DNA from: Emticicia sp. CRIBPO | Lineage (GTDB): Bacteria > Bacteroidota > Bacteroidia > Cytophagales > Spirosomataceae | Length of the DNA: 64,000 bases | NCBI RefSeq assembly: GCF_009905725.1 | Contig: NZ_JAAAKV010000002.1 | Span: 124,001 to 188,000 of the forward strand | Direction: 5' to 3' | Shown here: positions 6,801-43,255 of the stretch, in pieces | How positions within the stretch are numbered: the stretch's first letter is position 1 | How the letters are laid out: the number at the start of each line of letters is the position of its first letter | Made by a program: the position numbers and the translations under genes | The notes under the pieces: generated by a model | Seen by the model: only the letters and a program-made list of their open reading frames with translations | What the model was told of the DNA's origin: nothing | Database searches by the model: none

Positions 6801-6992
6801 GGTAATAAGGGACGATTTGACCAGTACGTCGGCACTGGCACCGGGGTATTCAATGGCCACACTCACCGTGGTGGGGGCAATCTGCGGAAACTGTGAAATG
6901 GGCAGCTGATTGATAGCCAGTGAACCCACAAACAGGATAAGGACGGAAATTACAATCGCAAAGACCGGCCGGTGTATGATTTTACTAAACAT
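3843..6992 (-). CDS. RND multidrug efflux transporter, HAE1/AcrB family
   Basis: This is the proton-driven inner-membrane pump of the RND complex, related to AcrB and MexB. The 1049-residue length matches the family. The N-terminal membrane helix starts directly after MFSKIIHRPVF, followed by the QFPQIAPTTV stretch that AcrB proteins share. The proton relay pair Asp408-Asp409 is present in the TM4 motif GIVVDDAI. The second half repeats the topology, with the expected Lys in TM10 in the GLLGKNAVLI segment. The gene follows the adaptor after 21 bp and overlaps the channel gene by 4 bp. The family exports hydrophobic drugs, bile salts or dyes; the real substrate is unknown. It belongs to the hydrophobe/amphiphile class, since the DD pair rather than the heavy-metal signature is present. 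Confidence 0.95.
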   Translation of the reverse strand: MFSKIIHRPVFAIVISVLILFVGSLAINQLPISQFPQIAPTTVSVAIEYPGASADVLVKSSLITLENAINGVQGMRYMSTDATSAGEATINVVFDPGTDPNAAMVIVKNRVDQVMTMLPDLVRNEGVIVTPIQPSMLMYVNLYSTNKSMDEKFLYNYATVNMIPEITRVPGIAKAQILGSRRYAMRVWLNPDRMRAYNISVNEVMEALSEQSIIGRPGRLGQSSGIAAQSLEYVLTYKGQLNKPEEYENVIVRANAEGQNVHLKDIAKVELGSEFFDIYSNLDGHPSASIMLKQNYGSNANDVIASVKDQLEVMKKSFPPGVDYKISYDVSKFLDASIEQVIHTLRDAFILVALVVFVFLGDWRSTLIPILAVPVSLIGAFFVIQMFGLSINLVTLFALVLAIGIVVDDAIVVVEAVHAKMEDSDLTPYKAVQEVMKEISGAIIAITLVMVSVFMPISFMSGPVGTFYRQFSITMASSIVISALIALTLTPVLCAILLKNHHGHHKKKNFFDKIMDGFNNGFNKITGKYVGLLKKIVNRKAVTWGILIVFCAGIYVQSKYLAGGFIPSEDQGTIYAIIQTPPGSTLERTNKVSRELQKICEEIDGVESVASLAGYEIMTEGRGSNAGTCLINLKDWSERKHTVVEIMEELEHKSKGLGATIEFFEPPAIPGFGSSGGFSMRLLDQSSTVDYNAFDKVNKQFMEDLGKRKELTGLFTFFATNYPQYELVIDNEVAMQKGISIGKAMENLNILIGSNYEQGFIRFGQFFKVYVQSSPEFRRLPSDVLNLFVKNDHGEMVPYSAFMTLKKTQGPNEITRYNMYNSSAIRGLPAAGYTTADAIKAINETALKTLPHGYKIAWEGLSYDEANRGNESIYVFAVVLIFVYMVLAAQYESFIIPLAVVLSLPVGIFGSFFMLKAMGLANDIYAQVGLIMLVGLLGKNAVLIIEIAIQKRRAGATIMESAIEGAKARFRPILMTSFAFIAGMVPLIVATGAGAIGNRTIGSSALGGMLFGTVFGVIVIPGLYYIFARLADGRKIIQDEYEEPLTEII

Positions 6993-7013
6993 GTTTTATT
7001 CTTTGAGGATGAA

Positions 7014-8099
7014 TTATTCGGCATAAAGATTCAGACCGGACAATACTTTGCCGGGTGCCAGTTCCTTGACCTTGATTTTATCGTTTTCTTTCACCATCCT
7101 GATGCCTTCAAGCAGGATCCTTTCGTCTTTCGCCAGACCGCTCTTGATGACGTAAATATGCGGCAGCTCGGCGTCTATGACTACCTCTCTTGATTTTACC
7201 TTGTTGTCTTTATCAATCACGAACACGTATCTTTTGTCCAATACCTCAAACGTGGCCTTCTGCGGAATGAGCAGGGCATTCTTTTTCCTGGTAGTGATGA
7301 CGATGTTACCGGTTTGTCCGTAACGGAGCAGCCCTTTCGGATTTGAGAACGTGGCTCTGAACGGGATGTTACCGGTTTCATGGTCAAAGTCAGCCTCGAT
7401 GGTTTCTACGACGCCATTCTGATCGAACATCTCGCCGTTGGCCATTTTCAGACCTACGTGTTTGAGGTTACCTTCGTTTTCCTTGTTCATATAAGCCAGG
7501 TATTCCGCCTCAGGTACGTTGAAATACACCCACATTTTGCTGTTGTCAGACAGCTCGGTGAGCAGTTCGCCTTCTTCAATGAGACTGCCCAGCCTCACAT
7601 GGAAACTGTTGAGGATACCGTCGAAAGGGGCCTTGATGATGGTAAGGCCCAGGTGGGTATTCATCAGGTCAAGTTCGGCTTTGGCTTTGTTGTATTTGGC
7701 TTTGGCCATGGCGAGTTCGTTGGGCGAAACCACGTTGTTATCTGTCAGGGCCTTGGTGTTCTGATATTCGATATCCGCAAAATTGGCTTCGGCTTCCGCT
7801 TTTTTCACCTCGGCTTCATATAAATTAGGCATGATCTTGAAGAGTGTCTGGCCTTTTCTGACCTTCTGTCCTTCATCTACATAAATGTTTTGTAAGTAAC
7901 CTTTTTCCTGAGCCCTCAATTCGATGTGGCTGATAGAGTGAATCTGGCAAACGTAATTCTTTGTGACCATGGTGTCAGTCACATAAGGGGTGGTGACCAG
8001 AAACTCTGTTTCTTTTTCTTTTTCTTCCTTTTCGGAGTGACAACTTGTAGCTATATACGCTACAGAAATCCCTGCCAGAAAGAGCACTTTCTTTAACAT
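7014..8099 (-). CDS. RND efflux periplasmic adaptor lipoprotein (AcrA/MexA type)
   Basis: This membrane-fusion protein links the RND pump to the outer-membrane channel. It has a lipoprotein-type N-terminus with a candidate acylated Cys20 in IATSC. A lipoyl-like half motif (about residues 60-95), a short coiled-coil hairpin rich in Ala, Glu and Lys (about 95-140), the returning lipoyl half, and beta-barrel and membrane-proximal domains follow in the usual order. The length of 361 residues is typical. It is the first pump gene of the operon, 21 bp ahead of the transporter. No regulator of the TetR or MarR type is adjacent, so expression may be constitutive or controlled from elsewhere. Confidence 0.93.
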   Translation of the reverse strand: MLKKVLFLAGISVAYIATSCHSEKEEKEKETEFLVTTPYVTDTMVTKNYVCQIHSISHIELRAQEKGYLQNIYVDEGQKVRKGQTLFKIMPNLYEAEVKKAEAEANFADIEYQNTKALTDNNVVSPNELAMAKAKYNKAKAELDLMNTHLGLTIIKAPFDGILNSFHVRLGSLIEEGELLTELSDNSKMWVYFNVPEAEYLAYMNKENEGNLKHVGLKMANGEMFDQNGVVETIEADFDHETGNIPFRATFSNPKGLLRYGQTGNIVITTRKKNALLIPQKATFEVLDKRYVFVIDKDNKVKSREVVIDAELPHIYVIKSGLAKDERILLEGIRMVKENDKIKVKELAPGKVLSGLNLYAE

Positions 8100-8211
8100 A
8101 AAATAAAAAAATTAAGATTAATAATGGTAGAAAGGGTGGATAAGAGCAGATGCAATCAGCAGATTACCTGAAGTACTCTTACAAACCAAAACGGGGAAAG
8201 ACCTTAGGGTA

Positions 8212-8625
8212 TCACAGCCTGAAGACCCTGAAAAAGATATAAAGTGTTTTTACAGGAAGGAGATAACTATCTGAAAATAGCTTTCTTGCAGAAAGAAAAA
8301 AGTCGGAAATCCTGAAACATTGCCTTGAATAACCCAAAACAACAGCAGCACTGCTGAATTTCAGGGTATTGTTGAGACTTTCTTCAACGATTTCAATACA
8401 AGCGAGGTTAAAAATGCCGGTATAAGTATGAGATACTGCGGCAGTGCCATGGGTGGTGGAAGTTGCCCGCTCAATCTCGCGGGTATCCCTGGAAACAGGG
8501 TGGTGAATTCTGACGGCAGAGTCTACGAATGTCTCCCTGCTCACCTGGCCGGCTGCCATGTGAGGCCCTCCACTTAATAAAAAAAGTAGTGGTAGAAAGA
8601 AGTATTTCTTAAAAAGCCCTTTCAT
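8212..8625 (-). CDS. Small secreted protein, unknown
   Basis: I do not recognise this 137-residue frame. It begins with a good Sec signal peptide (basic MKGLFKKY, hydrophobic core, then AAGQ as likely cleavage site near residue 26). The mature part of about 110 residues has two Cys (near residues 75 and 103) and no clear domain. The C-terminal 35 residues are hydrophobic and aromatic, which could mean the frame is shifted or that the tail enters the membrane. It lies 112 bp ahead of the RND adaptor on the same strand, so it may be co-transcribed and act in the envelope. The signal peptide is the only strong argument that it is real. Confidence 0.45.
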   Translation of the reverse strand: MKGLFKKYFFLPLLFLLSGGPHMAAGQVSRETFVDSAVRIHHPVSRDTREIERATSTTHGTAAVSHTYTGIFNLACIEIVEESLNNTLKFSSAAVVLGYSRQCFRISDFFLSARKLFSDSYLLPVKTLYIFFRVFRL

Positions 8626-8807
8626 TCAGGTGTAAAAGTATAGAGAAGATAATTTAACCACCAAGCAATTATAAAAATTTAATAAAAACGAAAGCTAAAA
8701 AACAGGAATTTTTATAAATTTTAGAGATTCTGTTCTATTTCCTTTCAGATTTTTTTTTATAAAACCGTAAAACCGGGCGATCATGTTGTATGCAGCTTGC
8801 CGGAATT

Positions 8808-10016
8808 TTATTTTTTCAACAGTAACCTCGCGAAGGCCAGCATTTCAGCGGTAGGCCTCAGCGAAAGGTATGGCATCCAGAAAGGCGAGCCCAGATCCCG
8901 CGATTCATTGAAATTGTTGGTTGACAAAAGCAGCTCGTTGGGATAAATACCCGACCTCAGCAATGGCCGGCTTTCAAACGCGGTGTACCGCATGACAATG
9001 TCTGAGGTAACGAGGAATTTCTTGTCCAGCTTGTCTTCAAAATCAACGACAAAACTCACCTGGGAATCCTGAAGCCGCCATTTGCCCTGGAATTTGCGGT
9101 ATTGTACATAAGCTTCGACGGTCTTTCCTGTGATTTTGATCGGACCTGAGTTGACATTGACCAGGTCGCGGACGCCTTCGGGGGTCAGTTTGTACTCGAT
9201 CCTGGCGATGGCCTTGGTTTCCGGGTCAATGTAAATCACCCCTTCCCTGGCGGCCTTTATCCTTTTATGTATGGGCTTAAACCTGATGACAAACAGGGGG
9301 ATTTCATCAAAGGTGGTCATGAGTGAGTCGATCCTGAATTCATAATCATCGATGTTCTTTTTATGAAAGTAATCAGGAATGGATGATTCAAGCGACTTAC
9401 AGACGATGTCAGTACCATTCTGAAAACCCCAGCCTTCCAGTTTGGAGGTCTGGCCTTTCCACTCGAGTCTTCTGCCTCTCAGCAGTTTTACCTTGTCCGG
9501 AATCTCTTTTTTGGGATCAGGGAACCGCTCCACTTTCACAATACCCTCGTTGATTTTGACAAAACCCAGCTTCTGGATTCTAAACAATTCCTGGAAAAAA
9601 CCGGTCTGGTAACTGGCCTTGTCCGGGTAATTATTCTTGATGCTGTCCAGTGCCGATTTAACAAAGACCTTGGCATCGGAAATACCGAGCGAGGCATTGA
9701 TCAGCGGCAGTGCCTCCATTTCTATGACGTTACTGTCAGGCTTCAGGGTGTTGGCAATGAAAGAAACCGACTTATAACCCATCAGGGAGACCACCACCTG
9801 TGAATCCAGGTTGATTTTAGGAAACTGGAAAACAAAGTCGCCGTCATGGTTGGTGCCGGTGCCGAAGCCCGTGGAAGGGATCACGATATAAGCCTCAGAT
9901 AAGGCCTTTTGCGTTACTTTATCCTGGATTTTCCCGGTTACGATCGTGTATCCGCCCTGAGAAAAAGCCTGAAAAAAGACAAAATAAAAGATGACAATTC
10001 CTGACAAAATCCGCAT
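8808..10016 (-). CDS. Secreted carboxypeptidase-regulatory-like domain protein
   Basis: The product is an exported Bacteroidota protein with an N-terminal CarboxypepD_reg-like beta-sandwich domain. The frame is open upstream to 10094, but I chose the ATG at 10016 because it starts a proper signal peptide (MRILSGIVIFYFVFF, ending at AFSQ). The domain (about residues 25-105 of the processed frame) has the pattern GKIQDKVTQKALSEAYIVIP followed by a GT-N-DGDFVF turn, as in the N-termini of SusC-like TonB-dependent receptors, but no TonB plug or barrel follows. The rest (about 300 residues) is unassigned and rich in beta-prone segments. Proteins of this layout occur singly in Bacteroidota and are thought to be periplasmic or outer-membrane associated. 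The exact role is unknown. Confidence 0.75.
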   Translation of the reverse strand: MRILSGIVIFYFVFFQAFSQGGYTIVTGKIQDKVTQKALSEAYIVIPSTGFGTGTNHDGDFVFQFPKINLDSQVVVSLMGYKSVSFIANTLKPDSNVIEMEALPLINASLGISDAKVFVKSALDSIKNNYPDKASYQTGFFQELFRIQKLGFVKINEGIVKVERFPDPKKEIPDKVKLLRGRRLEWKGQTSKLEGWGFQNGTDIVCKSLESSIPDYFHKKNIDDYEFRIDSLMTTFDEIPLFVIRFKPIHKRIKAAREGVIYIDPETKAIARIEYKLTPEGVRDLVNVNSGPIKITGKTVEAYVQYRKFQGKWRLQDSQVSFVVDFEDKLDKKFLVTSDIVMRYTAFESRPLLRSGIYPNELLLSTNNFNESRDLGSPFWMPYLSLRPTAEMLAFARLLLKK

Positions 10017-37155: not shown

Positions 37156-40100
37156 ATGATCAAAGTATCCCGGATTATTTACTTTCTAACTTTCAGAGTG
37201 TTATTTACTATTACTTGTTTTATTTCATTTATCCCTTCTTCCAGTGCTCAATCTCAGGTTTTCGGTAATGAATGGATTGTTTCCGGTCAAAAATATTACA
37301 AAGCCGGGATCTCCTCCAACGGAATTTACAGAATTACTTACCAGGAGCTGAAAAATGCCGGGATGGATATAAGTACAGTCAATCCAAAGAAAATCCAAGT
37401 GTTTCATCACGGACGCGAAATGGCCGTGAGGATAGAAGGCGAGTCTGATAATGAATTCAATACCAATGATTACATAGAATTCTATGCAGAAAAAAACAAC
37501 GGGGAACTTGACAGCCTGGTTTATAAATATGCAAAAAGACCGCATCCTTATCAGACACTTTATTCGGAACAGACATCTTATTTTATCACAGCAGGGCAAA
37601 ATGATGGGAAAAGGACACAGGCCTACGCCTCCGGCAACGACCCTGTTACGGATACTTATCATATAGAAGAACAGATCGTTGCCACCAATGCCCAGTTCTC
37701 GTTCAACAACTTCACCAGCCTTGTGCCGCTGGTGCAGCAAAGCTATTATGAAGAAGGCGAAGGCTGGTCGGGAAAATACATGACCGTCGATTCCACTGCC
37801 CGTTTTCCTCTTAAAATGACCAGCCGGGTCAACATAAGCAATCAGAAACCAAAACTGGAGTTTCAGCTCAACGGCCGTTCCCGTAACAGCCACAAAGTCT
37901 GGTACGCTCTCAACGAAGAGAAATCCATTGACACCGTTATCATTGCCCCGTATTCTCCGTTCAAAATCTCTCTGGATTTAAATACCAGTCAGATCGTTGA
38001 TGAAAAGATTGTCCTGAAAACAAGGCTGATGGGTTCGAGCATCTCAGACTGGTACTCTATGAATTACATCAAACTATCCTACCCACAGGCCTTTGCAATG
38101 AGCGGAGCAAAGAGCAAATACTTTAACCTAGCAGAAAACAAAGCGGGTAACTCAGTGATACAAATTCAGGACATCAGCCAGGATAACATCATTTACGATA
38201 TTACCGACCGCTATAACCAACGCACAGCTACCCTGAACAACGGGAAATTCAGAGTGGAGAATACAACCGTCAAAAGGAAGCTTTTTGTAAGTAATGAAAT
38301 CAAAAAAACACAGTCTGTAGAGGCCGTTAGTTTTCGTCGGCTGGACCAGGAAGCCAATTATCTGATCATTACGCATAAGTCTCTGCTTGAATCTGCGTAT
38401 GAATATGCCTCTTACCGCTCCTCTGCACAGGGAGGTGGTTTCAAACCGCTGATTGTTGAAACCCGCGAAATCTATGATCAGTTTAACTATGGAGAAAGAA
38501 ATCCGGCAGCCATTAAAAAATTCTCGGGATATATGCTGGCTAAAGGCCAGGATAAATACATGATGCTGCTCGGCAGAGCCATAAGTTTCCCGGATTCTCT
38601 TAAAAAATCTGAAGCTTCAGACTTGGTACCTACCGTTGGTTACCCCGGTTCCGATGTTCTACTGACTGAAGGCATTGCAGGATACCCGGAATTTGTCCAG
38701 GCCATTCCCACAGGCCGGCTGAACATTACGACCAATGAACAGGTCCGCAATTATCTCGGCAAAGTCAAAGAGTTTGAAGCCGCCCAGCCCGCGGGTTGGA
38801 ACAAAAGAGTCCTTCACCTGAGCGGCGGTAAGACAAAATCTGAAATCAACAGCCTTAAAGGCTTTCTTGAGGAGATCAAATCTATCGCAGAAAACCAATA
38901 CCTGGGAGGTCAGGTAACTTCTAAAAATAAACAAACAGAAGAGGATGTTGAACCTATAGACATTTCAGCACAGGTCAATGAAGGCGTTTCTATGATCACT
39001 TTTGCAGGGCATGGATCACCGACGGTCATTGACCTTAACTTCGGATATGTATCTGATCCTAAATACAATTTCAAAAACAAAGGCAAATACCCTCTCATGT
39101 TTTTCAACGGCTGCGGTGTAGGTAATATCTTTTACCGTTATCAGACCCTGAGCACCGACTGGCTTGTCACTCCTGACAAAGGCAGTATAGTCATCCTGGC
39201 CAATTCCTTCTGGAGTTACGTAAGTTCAACACAGACCTACCTGCAGACCCTGTACAAAAAATCATTTGAAGATCCCTCAGGATTAAACGCATCTATCGGG
39301 AAAATACAGCAGGAAATGCACAAAAGCCTGGCCAAACAGGCTCAAACCGACCAGCTGTTAAGAATGGACCTTCAGCAGGTGATACTCCAGGGTGACCCTG
39401 CCATCAAAATATTCAAGTTGTCAAAACCGGATTTCTCAGCGGGTAAAATATTCATTTCTTCCGCCAAACCAGGCTCGCCCATGAACTCCGGTGATTCGTT
39501 GAATGTAGGTATCATTGCTTCCAACTACGGAAAATATGAGAGCGGAAAACAAATACCTGTAGGCATAACCGTAAAAATGGCCAACGGACAAAGCCGCCCT
39601 TACAGTTTCCGGATGAACGTTATGGCTTTCACTGATACTGTTTCTTTCTCTGTCAAAAGAGAACCGGGAATAAAGAGCATTGAAGTATTTCTGGATCATC
39701 GTTCAGAAACAGAAGAATTGAATGAAAACAACAATTCAGCTGCACTTGACCTGAGCAACTGGGATGAAATCAGTAAAAACAACAGCTATCCGAACAATAT
39801 CCTACCGGATAAACTCAGCCCGCTTTTAATGGTCACTATTGATGGCAAAGCCATTGCAAACAATGATTTTGTCAGTAAAAATCCTGCAATAGAAGTCACT
39901 CTTGCTGATGACAACGACATTCCCGTTGAAAACAAAGACAACCTTGAAACCTTCATCAGGAAATGTGAAAGCTGCAGTTTTGAAAAATTAAACCATGAAA
40001 CCGGGGTTCAGAATTTACCCGGCAAACTGATCATCAGCTATCAGTTGGATGATCTTGTTCCGGGTACTTACGAATTACTGGCCAGGGGAAGCGATCTAGC

Positions 40101-40434
40101 CGGCAATGTGACCCGGAATCCCTACCTGATCAGTTTCAGGGTAGCCGAAGCCTCCGAGCCCTTCCAGTGGTCGGTATTCCCTAATCCGGGTCAATATTTT
40201 GTAAAGATCAACTTTAAAGTCATCGGCCAGGCAGCCCCTGAAAGTGCCACAGCCTATTTTTACAATAACCAGGGAGCGATAGTAGATACCTTGAGTATCC
40301 AGCCAACGGTGGGAGAAAACACTTTTTACTGGGAAAAAATATCAGAACTGCCTGCGGGGATTTATCACTTGCTCCTGAAAATCGCCGTAAATGGCAAACA
40401 GGAGATCATCAAAGGAAAGATATTAAAAAATTAA
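37156..40434 (+). CDS. C25-family T9SS protein, PorU/PorU2-like sortase
   Basis: The product (1092 residues) resembles the sortase PorU, which cleaves the C-terminal signals of type IX secretion cargo and attaches them at the cell surface. A signal peptide ends at SSSAQS. The C25 (gingipain-like) domain has the catalytic pair His619 in FAGHGSP and Cys653 in FNGCGVG. The fold around it (an Asp-rich N-terminal beta domain to about residue 400) fits PorU2-type proteins. It ends with a T9SS type A sorting domain starting at about Trp1005 (WSVFPNPG) and closing with a Gly- and Lys-rich GKQEIIKGKILKN. An alternative is a gingipain-like peptidase exported by the T9SS. It stands alone; other T9SS genes are not in the window. 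Confidence 0.88.
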   Translation: MIKVSRIIYFLTFRVLFTITCFISFIPSSSAQSQVFGNEWIVSGQKYYKAGISSNGIYRITYQELKNAGMDISTVNPKKIQVFHHGREMAVRIEGESDNEFNTNDYIEFYAEKNNGELDSLVYKYAKRPHPYQTLYSEQTSYFITAGQNDGKRTQAYASGNDPVTDTYHIEEQIVATNAQFSFNNFTSLVPLVQQSYYEEGEGWSGKYMTVDSTARFPLKMTSRVNISNQKPKLEFQLNGRSRNSHKVWYALNEEKSIDTVIIAPYSPFKISLDLNTSQIVDEKIVLKTRLMGSSISDWYSMNYIKLSYPQAFAMSGAKSKYFNLAENKAGNSVIQIQDISQDNIIYDITDRYNQRTATLNNGKFRVENTTVKRKLFVSNEIKKTQSVEAVSFRRLDQEANYLIITHKSLLESAYEYASYRSSAQGGGFKPLIVETREIYDQFNYGERNPAAIKKFSGYMLAKGQDKYMMLLGRAISFPDSLKKSEASDLVPTVGYPGSDVLLTEGIAGYPEFVQAIPTGRLNITTNEQVRNYLGKVKEFEAAQPAGWNKRVLHLSGGKTKSEINSLKGFLEEIKSIAENQYLGGQVTSKNKQTEEDVEPIDISAQVNEGVSMITFAGHGSPTVIDLNFGYVSDPKYNFKNKGKYPLMFFNGCGVGNIFYRYQTLSTDWLVTPDKGSIVILANSFWSYVSSTQTYLQTLYKKSFEDPSGLNASIGKIQQEMHKSLAKQAQTDQLLRMDLQQVILQGDPAIKIFKLSKPDFSAGKIFISSAKPGSPMNSGDSLNVGIIASNYGKYESGKQIPVGITVKMANGQSRPYSFRMNVMAFTDTVSFSVKREPGIKSIEVFLDHRSETEELNENNNSAALDLSNWDEISKNNSYPNNILPDKLSPLLMVTIDGKAIANNDFVSKNPAIEVTLADDNDIPVENKDNLETFIRKCESCSFEKLNHETGVQNLPGKLIISYQLDDLVPGTYELLARGSDLAGNVTRNPYLISFRVAEASEPFQWSVFPNPGQYFVKINFKVIGQAAPESATAYFYNNQGAIVDTLSIQPTVGENTFYWEKISELPAGIYHLLLKIAVNGKQEIIKGKILKN

Positions 40435-40462
40435 ACCGGCTTATTCAAGGCCGGTTTCTTTT
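40433..40462. terminator. Terminator between convergent genes
   Basis: AAACCGGC (40433-40440) and GCCGGTTT (40450-40457) form a stem with 9-nt loop and are followed by CTTTT. It covers the stop codons of both convergent genes. Confidence 0.8.
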
Positions 40463-41145
40463 AAAGTCCAGAAGGTCTTTTTGCCAAAATCAATGATACC
40501 GGCACCGATACATTCTGATTTCTGACAATAGGTGAGTGATATTACTTCTTTGTAGATCAGACCTTTTTCCAGGGCATAAACATCCGTTTTACGATCCATT
40601 GTGAGAGCAGTGGAATCGTTAACCGTACTCACTTTAAGTGTCCTGGGATATAATGTTGTTTCATTCAGCTGATAACTGCCTCCTACTTTCACGTATTTCA
40701 GTTCCTGGGGCTCAGCAGTATTTAACGCATTGGTGTTCCATTCAGAGCCTTCTTCTGCAGGAAAAATCAGTTTGGTAAGCGACACATTATTTTCAATCCT
40801 GATAAGTTTATCCGGCAATGGTCTGATCAACCACACAGAATCTGCCTTCCAGTCTTCCGAAAGTGTATTCTTTTTGTACCTTACCAGCTGATAAAACCGG
40901 TTGTCGTGATCATCTTCTATCATATTACCGATGCTCTCCTTAATCCAGTAATGCCGGGTCTCTGGCTTGTTGGTCAGTGAAAATAATTCCTCCGACACTT
41001 CGTAAACCCAGAATCTTCCTTTTTCAACAGGATAATAAGCAGTATCTGCAACCCTGACGACATCGTCGGTTTGACAAGCAGAAAATAATACTCCTGACAG
41101 CATCACTGCCCACCTAATATTCACGAACACCTTAAGACTTTTCAT
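40441..41145 (-). CDS. Lipoprotein, third gene of the RiPP-like operon
   Basis: The product has 234 residues and a lipoprotein signal ending LFSACQ. The mature part begins with ADTAYYPVEKGRFWVYEV, a pattern seen in Bacteroidota lipoproteins whose N-terminal domain looks like a beta sandwich, and it has a late YCQKSEC cysteine pair (about residues 207-212). Function is not known. Its start is 14 bp behind the stop codon of the asparagine-synthetase-like gene, so both are probably co-transcribed. Whether it helps export or immunity of a RiPP is speculation. Confidence 0.7.
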   Translation of the reverse strand: MKSLKVFVNIRWAVMLSGVLFSACQTDDVVRVADTAYYPVEKGRFWVYEVSEELFSLTNKPETRHYWIKESIGNMIEDDHDNRFYQLVRYKKNTLSEDWKADSVWLIRPLPDKLIRIENNVSLTKLIFPAEEGSEWNTNALNTAEPQELKYVKVGGSYQLNETTLYPRTLKVSTVNDSTALTMDRKTDVYALEKGLIYKEVISLTYCQKSECIGAGIIDFGKKTFWTLKETGLE

Positions 41146-41159
41146 TTTTATGGTTTTTT

Positions 41160-43046
41160 TTACAAGACAGGCCCGTCCTGTACTTTGTATCGATGATTAT
41201 ATTGCTCTACAAAATCAAGCCAGATAGCGAGATAAAGCACCCTGCTGGCCTGCCAGATATGTCTGTTTTTTTTGCTGGCCTTAAGTTTTCCATTATAGAT
41301 CACTTCAAGACTGAAGTCAAAAGCTTCTCTGGAAATAATATCCCAAACCGGATGAGTCCATGCGTCAGGTCTCCTCTTAAAATCCTGCCATAAAGACTTA
41401 AAGGCCCTGTAACCATACTCGGAAAACTCACCCTTGGAGGTGCGTTCAGCAACCTTTTGCGGAAGATAATCCTGCATAGCATCTCTCAGAATCCCACGCC
41501 CCTTCCCTTCTCTGAATGAATCCGACAGCGTAACATTGATGGTCAGCTCCAGCAATTCCTTATCGAAAAACGGATAGTCCACCTGCAGGTTCTGTTTTGA
41601 AAACAGAGCAAACATTTCTTCATTATGTATTATTCCCGGATCAGAAAAGCAGTATTTAAGTTGTTGTTTCTGGTAATCAGAAAGGGTATAATGCCCCACC
41701 AACTCATCAGTATCAAATGTTTTCACGGATTCCGTGATGAGATCATCATTGAAAGCCGGCTTGACAAACATCATGGTTTCAGGCACTTTGTCCTTCCGTG
41801 TGGTTTTAGTCTTTAATAACCTGAAAATCTCATGAGCCCTGATCCCGAAGTACTTATTCAATACAAAAACACTGCTGAAGATATTTTTCAGACTCTTTTT
41901 CTTCTTCCATTTACTGACAAAAAAATACAGGGCAAACATCCTCACCTTTGCTCTTTTGGTAGATTGTCCCCATTTCGGAGAAAGGAATGCATATTGACTT
42001 TCATAATGCCTCAGATACTGACGCATGGCTACAGAAAGTTTCTTCCAGTTTTCAGATTCAAACAATTCCTCCATGTAGTCAAACCCATACCCAATCACCT
42101 GGTCTCCCCCGTTTCCGGAAAGAATAATGTCAGACCCTTTCAGGTGGGCGGTTTCAGCCAGGGGTTCGAAAATACTGATCGGAATCGCCATCATCTCAGG
42201 TTGGGCAATATCTGCGGTAAGTTCTGTAATGATCCGGCTGAATTCTTTTCCGGGCTTGACAGAGTAATGCCGGGAATCGGAACCTTCACGCTGCCATTTA
42301 GATAATACGGCATTCACAAATTCCTTTTCTTCTGCATCTTCTGAGTCAATATCAACATAAAAGGTCTGAAGCTCTGATTTTGATTGGATAACGGACGAAA
42401 TAGCAGAAGAATCCAGCCCTCCGCTCAGGTTGGCTCCTATGGAATTGAAACCATTGGCTTTACGAAAAACCGAGTGCTCGAAAGTATGTTTGAATTGATC
42501 CGAAAGTTGCCGGTAGGTCAGGGCATTATTTTTCTTCAGGTCCAGAAAACCGGTCATTTTCCATTCTATGACACCGTTTTTTATAATCAGGGCCTGAGAA
42601 GGTAAGATCCGGTGAATATGCCTGAAAAAAGTCTGGTCATTGACCAGTCCCCCGCGGTTTTCACGGTCAAAATACCGGACAATTCTCTCTGGGTTGATCT
42701 CAGCTTTCTGATTCCAGCCATCCAGGATAGCCTTTATCGAAAAACTAAAAAAAAGAGGAACATCGTCAGCAGCAACATCTGCAGACGGACTTCCTTCAGG
42801 GGAAGGGTAAGCATAAAAGAGAGGAAACAGACCAAAGAAGTCACGGAATGCCGCAACATAGTTATTCTTGCGGTCATGAATGACAAAGGAATGATCTTCA
42901 AATGCGGTATTGAGAAAAGACTCTCCCAAACTGAGGTACCCGTCAATCAGTGTTTCTCCAAATGAAATGGAAGAACACCAGACGGTAACTTCTCCTTTTG
43001 TGACAAATCGATTCTCAAAACCGCAGAATCTGACTTTTAAAGACAT
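41160..43046 (-). CDS. Asparagine-synthetase-like protein, probable lasso-type cyclase
   Basis: The product has 628 residues. It shows the ATP-pyrophosphatase P-loop SGGLDSS at residues 208-214 and the family-typical GGDQVIGYG stretch further on (about 312-320). The glutaminase half is degenerate: there is no Cys at position 2, so ammonia from glutamine is unlikely. Lasso-peptide cyclases (McjC type) are AsnB relatives that use ATP to activate a side-chain carboxylate for macrolactam formation and also lack the N-terminal Cys. The precursor gene ends 17 bp upstream, which supports that role. Asparagine synthesis itself cannot be excluded from sequence, but the missing Cys argues against it. 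Confidence 0.8.
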   Translation of the reverse strand: MSLKVRFCGFENRFVTKGEVTVWCSSISFGETLIDGYLSLGESFLNTAFEDHSFVIHDRKNNYVAAFRDFFGLFPLFYAYPSPEGSPSADVAADDVPLFFSFSIKAILDGWNQKAEINPERIVRYFDRENRGGLVNDQTFFRHIHRILPSQALIIKNGVIEWKMTGFLDLKKNNALTYRQLSDQFKHTFEHSVFRKANGFNSIGANLSGGLDSSAISSVIQSKSELQTFYVDIDSEDAEEKEFVNAVLSKWQREGSDSRHYSVKPGKEFSRIITELTADIAQPEMMAIPISIFEPLAETAHLKGSDIILSGNGGDQVIGYGFDYMEELFESENWKKLSVAMRQYLRHYESQYAFLSPKWGQSTKRAKVRMFALYFFVSKWKKKKSLKNIFSSVFVLNKYFGIRAHEIFRLLKTKTTRKDKVPETMMFVKPAFNDDLITESVKTFDTDELVGHYTLSDYQKQQLKYCFSDPGIIHNEEMFALFSKQNLQVDYPFFDKELLELTINVTLSDSFREGKGRGILRDAMQDYLPQKVAERTSKGEFSEYGYRAFKSLWQDFKRRPDAWTHPVWDIISREAFDFSLEVIYNGKLKASKKNRHIWQASRVLYLAIWLDFVEQYNHRYKVQDGPVL

Positions 43047-43063
43047 CCTTTAAGAAGTTTTGC

Positions 43064-43255
43064 TTAGGCTGAAAACCCGCCTTCCAATGGAGCATCACTT
43101 GCGGATCCTGCTTTCATGGTAAGCCTGGTAATTTCGCCGTACTTCATCAGCATCGGTGTCTGATATTCCATTTTTTCAACGTGTCTGTTTTCATTTGCAC
43201 TGGTATTGACAGTATCCGCTGCCATGTTTTTACTGTCTGGGTGTAAATTGGTCAT
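43064..43255 (-). CDS. RiPP precursor peptide with lasso-type leader
   Basis: The 63-residue product contains the leader recognition pattern YxxPxLxxxG at residues 31-40 (YQTPMLMKYG), with a Thr at position 46 exactly six residues after the Gly, as in lasso precursors where that Thr is at -2. The putative core would then be residues 48-63 (KAGSASDAPLEGGFSA), with Asp54 at core position 7. If the core starts at Gly50, Glu58 is at position 9, which would also allow a ring. The N-terminal 30 residues are polar and lack a signal peptide. It leads the operon with the cyclase-like gene 17 bp downstream. No leader peptidase (B2) or RRE protein (B1) is found nearby, so the final structure is unknown. 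Confidence 0.78.
   Translation of the reverse strand: MTNLHPDSKNMAADTVNTSANENRHVEKMEYQTPMLMKYGEITRLTMKAGSASDAPLEGGFSA

Follow-up and report, generated by a model that had tools for sequence, protein, structure and literature searches.

Lasso peptides are mainly known as free secreted antibiotics, inhibitors or signals, and some of them are protease inhibitors. In the split-B type of lasso biosynthesis, a precursor (A) with a leader of the form YxxPxLxxxG...T is processed with the help of a protein containing a RiPP (ribosomally synthesized and post-translationally modified peptide) recognition element (RRE; B1), a protease (B2) and an AsnB-like cyclase (C), and paeninodin-type clusters additionally contain kinase- and nucleotidyltransferase-like genes. 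To our knowledge, no lasso peptide is known in the PorU system of the type IX secretion system (T9SS). PorU of Porphyromonas gingivalis removes the sorting domain and attaches A-LPS (anionic lipopolysaccharide), and an amino group was proposed to attack a thioester intermediate (PMC8545088). Here, we analyzed a 64,000-nucleotide stretch of the genome of Emticicia sp. CRIBPO (C12:124001-188000, hereafter the window), in which a lasso-type precursor, a cyclase and a lipoprotein gene lie next to a gene for PorU2, a second sortase-like protein of the T9SS. We consider it reasonably probable that these four genes are the local part of a distributed lasso peptide system which is wired to the T9SS and serves those cargo proteins of PorU2 that are marked by a particular module at the C-terminus. 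The features of this locus are as follows:

43064-43255, minus strand: precursor A, 63 aa, with leader 1-47 and predicted core K48-A63
41160-43046, minus strand: lasso-type cyclase C, 628 aa, AsnB-like, with no N-terminal Cys and with an SGGLDSS loop at 208-214
40441-41145, minus strand: lipoprotein, 234 aa, with lipobox-type Cys24 and conserved Cys207/Cys212, beta-rich
37156-40434, plus strand: PorU2, C25-family second T9SS sortase-like protein matching NF052324, convergent with the A-C-lipoprotein unit

A previous inspection of this DNA (the sequence-only reading) had claimed that A, an AsnB-like C and a lipoprotein occur together with neither B1 nor B2 on either side. Both points held: the three genes follow each other on the minus strand with 17 bp between A and C and 14 bp between C and the lipoprotein gene, and searches for B2 (PF13471, NF033537) and for PqqD/RRE proteins (PF05402) gave no match within the window. 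The PorU2 gene, which had not been mentioned before, is 6 bp away from the end of the lipoprotein gene and belongs to the conserved neighborhood of the locus. We could thereby confirm that the window contains a genuine lasso-type peptide locus, the helper genes of which are located at another place in the genome. The identity of the genes, their linkage, the location of B genes in trans, the pairing with cargo and the co-occurrence with the cargo module, all described below, are established at the level of sequence comparison. When compared with split-B lasso biosynthesis, the leader motif, the RRE protein, the B2 protease and the AsnB-like cyclase are the same, whereas the B1-B2 pair is encoded in trans, the precursors are often multicopy and scattered, the core is conserved with Lys at its position 1 and a predicted ring of 7 residues, and the genes are linked to PorU2 and T9SS cargo. 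A sortase-like protein of the C25 family and cargos ending in a Por-type tail are common to this system and the PorU system, but PorU2 adjoins lasso genes and stays well under the cut-off of the PorU model (200 of 420).

The PorU2 of the window matched NF052324 ("putative type IX secretion system sortase PorU2") with 889.8 bits (cut-off 450) and PF01364 with 224 bits, versus 200.3 bits for the PorU model NF033707 (cut-off 420); the only other C25 match of the genome, at C36:228610, is the PorU candidate. His619 and Cys653, which we take to be the catalytic residues as in other C25 enzymes, did not vary across an alignment of 14 sequences. When public genomes were scanned with aligned PorU2 proteins, 80 loci were kept, belonging to Spirosoma, Dyadobacter, Runella, Larkinella, Lacihabitans, Arundinibacter, Persicitalea, Fibrisoma, Jiulongibacter and others. 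C or A was present in 54 of these loci and both were present in 45, and the lipoprotein was found in 51 of the 54, as opposed to 1 of the 26 others. Twelve of the 26 came from Larkinella, and three (L156, L161 and L166) had PorU2 proteins that score like the lasso-linked ones, with no A or C in the stretch covered. When 68 PorU2 proteins were placed in a tree, 3 changes sufficed for the lasso label, versus a mean of 13.7 after shuffling; since part of this set was fetched through C or lipoprotein matches, and the loci of the genus g53 give two proteins each, the count over 80 loci is the cleaner evidence. As judged from these comparisons, there is one group of PorU2 genes within the family to which A, C and the lipoprotein are linked.

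Variants of this layout were also noticed. Dyadobacter-type loci (L104-L106, L108-L111, L114 and many of L192-L232) contain a second C25 protein of ~1000 aa, which, in the named loci, also matches the cargo C-terminal profile described below. One locus of the order PorU2-lipoprotein-C-A-cargo (L234) is located on a plasmid of Runella rosea (NZ_CP030852.1) and may therefore move between strains. A plasmid search with C gave 100 records, including one Runella plasmid locus, and the 39 others among the matches listed were all from Sinorhizobium with 22-23% identity.

At an E-value of 1e-6, the precursor profile detected A in 54 out of 150 genomes from the family and in 3 of 296 genomes of a phylum sample, the three being the genome studied here and two others from its family; thus, the precursor family is not a product of chance. 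The expectation that A would be conserved at the same place in related genomes was also borne out. Among 25 chosen genomes, the family occurred in 18, and in none of the seven whose E-values show no PorU2 near the cut-off. Several genomes contained many copies (at E 0.05 or better, nine in G020, seven in G032, six in G006 and four in G001). The idea that some C-lipoprotein-PorU2 loci have no precursor at all was rejected, as precursors were hidden under longer overlapping open reading frames (ORFs): a six-frame profile search uncovered them in L046, L047, L049, L053, L055 and L058, and genome searches revealed scattered precursors in G001, G006, G023, G028, G030 and G064.

We then asked what lies beside the precursors. 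From 58 precursor matches, 15 belonged to loci that had been read before, three had weak E-values (>0.005) and one contained stops, which left 39 further precursors, read in 37 stretches; one of these precursors (L271) belongs to a main locus that had been truncated earlier. For 27 of the 39, the immediately adjacent gene on the same strand matched a cargo C-terminal profile, which was built from 21 proteins beside A in the main loci, two of them shown with the Pfam Por secretion tail. Counted by ORF (at least 100 aa), this profile matched 27 of 49 adjacent genes and only 2 of 265 others. The two non-adjacent matches are in L235 and L243, and in L235 the end of the cargo gene lies immediately ahead of the precursor, a pair missed by the pairing rule because the frames overlap. 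Proteins with the Pfam secretion tail number 30 to 44 per genome (six genomes), so a random neighbor would rarely be one. The pairing was one-to-one in G001 (four precursors, four cargos) and in G006 (six and six), where each precursor adjoins one cargo, and L046 and L089 contain duplications of whole cargo-precursor units. A KxGS core is present in each of the 27 further precursors with a paired cargo, versus none of the three that lie beside curlin-like genes.

In L059-L062 and in the curli loci L266-L268, lasso-type cyclases adjoin curli-type genes (by inspection), and the precursors beside curlin-like genes carry Ala or some other residue instead of the core Lys. The genome of Emticicia sp. 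CRIBPO itself contains a second A-C pair on C13 (L040, 6987-13121), with a precursor at 6987-7157 and a cyclase at 7185-9011; its core, GGGSLFPD, lacks Lys, the stretch read contains no B genes, and the next gene after the pair encodes a protein of 1252 aa that carries a Por secretion tail (PF18962, 44.8 bits). On C1 (L292, 12976-14870), three short peptides in tandem, with leaders of the YxxPxLxxxG type and ends rich in Gly, possibly another RiPP family, lie next to an HprK-like gene (by inspection) and near two module-bearing T9SS cargos.

Within the precursor, the lasso leader consensus that had been read from the window alone (Y31, P34, L36, G40 and T46) proved invariant across seven aligned precursors including that of the window, as did G50 and S51; the precursor of the window carries the full YxxPxLxxxG...T motif. 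Its best NCBIfam matches were below their cut-offs (NF033528, 20.2 bits, cut-off 33; lasso leader NF033521, 15.8 bits, cut-off 19), and two precursors of relatives exceeded the NF033521 cut-off (L044, 25.7; L045, 22.5). The core had been placed at either residues 48-63 or 50-63; the former is preferred here, the latter not, and the role of F61 as the bulky tail residue was retained. The start of the core is best read as K48, with T46 at -2, a predicted ring between K48 and D54 (K1-D7) and F61 as the plug, and D54 at position 7 and F61 agree with the general layout of lasso cores (an Asp or Glu as residue 7-9 of the ring, plus a bulky residue in the tail). A nine-residue ring from G50 to E58, possible from the window alone, was discarded, as many relatives keep Asp at 7. 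Among 66 distinct precursors (compared from the YxxP motif on), 53 contain KxGSxxD, a core motif conserved across genera, and five identical cores adjoin different cargos in G020. By the core-start rule, the first Asp or Glu is residue 7 in 34 of the 66, residue 8 in 20 and elsewhere in 12, the last being partly mis-split (the rule took an earlier Thr, also for the precursor of the window) and partly truly different. Precursors with Lys at core position 1 mostly have the Asp at position 7, and those of g53, in which a Gly usually stands before the Lys, have it at position 8.

To characterize the cargo side, a profile of the C-terminal module (A7) was searched in 15 genomes. With a line at 120 bits, set after the scores had been seen, module proteins were present in all eight genomes with A (six in G000, four in G001, six in G006, ten in G020, two in G028, five in G030, four in G064 and 21 in G156) and in none of the seven without A, the best scores in the latter being 118.5 (G035) and 94.1 (G005). 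The 27 paired cargos scored at least 86.7 with the module profile (they had been selected at 80 or more), and 18 readable unpaired T9SS proteins of G006 and G030 scored at most 55 bits.

Taken with the pairing, these data suggest the following scheme. The B1 (RRE) and B2 (protease) proteins encoded in trans on contig C11 would cut A, and C would close the core into a small ring from Lys1 to Asp7, with the aromatic tail residue as a plug; threading of the lasso is likewise predicted from sequence. The mature peptide would serve T9SS cargos with the particular C-terminal module, on which PorU2 would act; in several relatives, such cargos have their own adjacent precursor gene, and in the genome of the window and in a Dyadobacter-like genome one or two precursors face several cargos. 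PorU2 may remove the sorting domain of the cargo and join the new C-terminus to the lasso peptide via the side-chain amine of the conserved Lys, by analogy with PorU of P. gingivalis; alternatively, it may hold the lasso peptide as a co-substrate. The lipoprotein could be the surface partner. A conjugate between cargo and lasso peptide is only a tentative proposal, suggested by this analogy. It is equally tentative to view PorU2 as a sortase with a lasso acceptor, which would take the sorting domain off its dedicated cargo and join the conserved Lys to give lasso-capped or lasso-anchored surface proteins, with some cargos bringing their own lasso gene, one central set of B1-B2 and C maturing all precursors, and a Lys-less parallel branch accompanying curli genes. 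In line with the acceptor idea, Lys is present in 27 of 27 further precursors with a paired cargo and is missing from the three linked to curli genes.

Several observations weigh against a system that serves module cargo. The genome of the window has two precursors and six module cargos, none of them adjacent to an A of this type, and the window itself yielded no module cargo; similarly, one precursor faces 21 module cargos in G156 (g53, Dyadobacter-like). The A7 profile was built only from cargos beside A, with rows from G001, G006, G020, G030 and G064 and none from G000, G028 or G156, and its 120-bit line lies just above the score of G035, which lacks A. Twelve of the 39 further precursors were unpaired by the rule: three lie beside curlin-like genes, one is truncated (L270) and eight others, including those of L235 and L243, have no partner that the rule accepts. 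The KxGS core is kept in 7 of these 12, so Lys by itself does not mark pairing, and the profile with which the further precursors were detected had Lys in 15 of its 16 rows. In four Runella-type loci (L080, L096-L098), the precursors lie near a PorU2 and lack the core Lys, and an ABC-transporter-like gene (~590 aa, by inspection) is located near the cyclase. Finally, C scores well under the NCBIfam lasso-cyclase cut-off (176 vs 525).

One alternative is that the product is an ordinary secreted lasso peptide, such as an antibiotic or a signal, and that PorU2, the lipoprotein and the cargo genes are neighbors through shared surface regulation or slow decay of synteny, without a chemical link. 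The biosynthetic set is indeed an ordinary one, kinase- and nucleotidyltransferase-like genes stand beside many B1-B2 pairs as in known lasso clusters, and the ABC-transporter-like gene of the four Runella-type loci would suit export. However, the core motif is kept across genera, with the five identical cores of G020 beside different cargos, and precursors far from C still track module cargos, which decay of synteny cannot explain. We therefore regard this alternative as unlikely. Slightly less likely still is that the lasso peptide acts, unattached, as a tight ligand of PorU2 (inhibitor, activator or folding partner) or as a protector of the cargo: PorU2 is a C25 protein with invariant His and Cys, and protease inhibitors are known among lasso peptides, but one precursor per cargo, as in G001 and G006, fits a cargo-specific partner better than an inhibitor of the enzyme.

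The cyclase deserves separate consideration. As the sequence-only reading had proposed, it is AsnB-like, with an ATP loop at 208-214 and no N-terminal glutaminase Cys: the SGGLDSS loop was conserved in 14 cyclase sequences including that of the window, none of which starts with Met-Cys. C matched Pfam Asn_synthase with 110 bits, and its best NCBIfam match was the lasso cyclase model NF033535, ahead of asparagine synthase (TIGR01536, 134 bits). Asparagine synthetase B shares the Asn_synthase domain and the ATP loop with C but differs in having the Cys for glutamine hydrolysis. A tree of 38 proteins was split, with 100/100 support, into 13 relatives starting with MCG plus Escherichia coli AsnB on one side and the 24 others including C on the other, so that C falls outside the asparagine synthetases, a grouping with which would have spoken against a RiPP locus. 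As the 38 proteins included E. coli AsnB and no characterized lasso cyclase, the tree excludes an asparagine synthetase more firmly than it proves a lasso cyclase. C might form an unthreaded macrolactam or another amide, for example a direct bond between peptide and protein. Its modest score (176 of 525 bits) and its nearest solved relatives by sequence, which are AsnB, hydroxyamidotransferase and beta-lactam synthetase entries, would agree with this, but the co-occurrence of lasso-type B1 and B2, and an Asp or Glu at 7 or 8 together with a tail aromatic in most precursors, match the rules of lasso peptides and make such a product improbable.

That the B genes might be elsewhere in the genome had been one of two suggestions of the earlier inspection, and a genome-wide search bore it out. 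The genome encodes two PF13471 transglutaminase-like proteins and five PqqD-type proteins, and a B1-B2 pair stands alone at C11:49566-50232, ~0.7 kb from the contig end. Its B2 passes the lasso B2 model NF033537 (65.5 bits, cut-off 33), and its B1 passes PF05402 (58 bits, cut-off 23.4) and is below the cut-off of NF033536 (62.7, cut-off 80). Among the compared sequences, the nearest to these proteins are B1 (50.6%) and B2 (49.6%) of L083, and the PorU2 of the window is also nearest to that of L083 in the tree of 68; because all three agree, the C11 pair and the window locus probably share a common history, and it is this pair that may act on the A of the window. The other B pair of the genome belongs to a separate cluster on C1 (L038) with its own AsnB-like protein, and its B2 is only 24% identical to that of C11.

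B2 (NF033537) was detected in 34 of 37 genomes examined, and the three without it (G005, G008 and G009) are of the same genus and also lack A. In g53, eight stretches read with A and C hold no B1 or B2, and B2 is above the cut-off in 13 of 13 genomes, on a different contig or >500 kb from the precursor. Judged from these genomes, B genes in trans are common in the group. The second suggestion, that the pathway works without B proteins and that the leader is recognized and removed by the cyclase, could appeal to the lack of B1 and B2 beside A-C in the window and in 32 of the 45 PorU2 loci with A and C (~10 kb read on each side, less at contig ends), yet it is highly improbable given B2 elsewhere in 34 of 37 genomes and its absence from three genomes that lack A, and with the C11 pair in trans such a role of the cyclase is not needed. 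Kinase- and nucleotidyltransferase-like genes adjoin many B1-B2 pairs (by inspection; NTP_transf_5 was confirmed for one). The C1 cluster (L038, 6596-13121) comprises B2-like, PqqD, sulfotransferase-like (by inspection), TauD dioxygenase and AsnB-like genes, with a possible 47-aa precursor at 7859-8002. In G016, a B2-type gene (L122, 7936-8376) lies directly upstream of a long PorU2-like gene (~1650 aa), with A and C on another contig.

The lipoprotein with its late Cys pair was likewise recovered, C24 and the pair C207/C212 being invariant in 15 sequences including that of the window. Its AlphaFold2 model shows a beta-rich fold (mean pLDDT 90.8), and a fold search gave weak matches, the best being an uncharacterized Parabacteroides lipoprotein (4fvs, TM 0.43-0.46), with weaker ones of LolA type. 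A part in immunity or export, as once suggested, found no support, as the lipoprotein accompanies PorU2 and paralogs of it occur in genomes without precursors, beside another protease-like gene that is S8-like by inspection (for example in G010, G011, G024, G025, G027, G029 and G034). We would guess that it is a carrier or surface partner. Paralogs were also seen beside an S8-protease-like gene (~550 aa, by inspection) in L066-L077, L079 and L082, and such pairs occur in genomes both with and without the lasso system.

A literature search, with most subscription papers outside its coverage, found no paper containing both "lasso peptide" and "type IX secretion", none containing "PorU2" and none containing "lasso peptide" with "curli"; for RiPP with type IX secretion, no title on this link was among the matches listed. 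Mining based on clusters could miss such loci. In the Runella rosea record (L234), the RefSeq names in order are C25 peptidase, hypothetical (the lipoprotein), asparagine synthase-related, hypothetical (the precursor) and ice-binding family protein. Here, lasso peptides stand beside a secretion system and a sortase-like protein, and a core motif is held across genera, and this company suggests a structural or anchoring job for them. If this is true, it would reveal a RiPP pathway in which scattered precursors are matured in trans, the purpose of PorU2 would be explained, and the T9SS would gain a peptide-based route of attachment.

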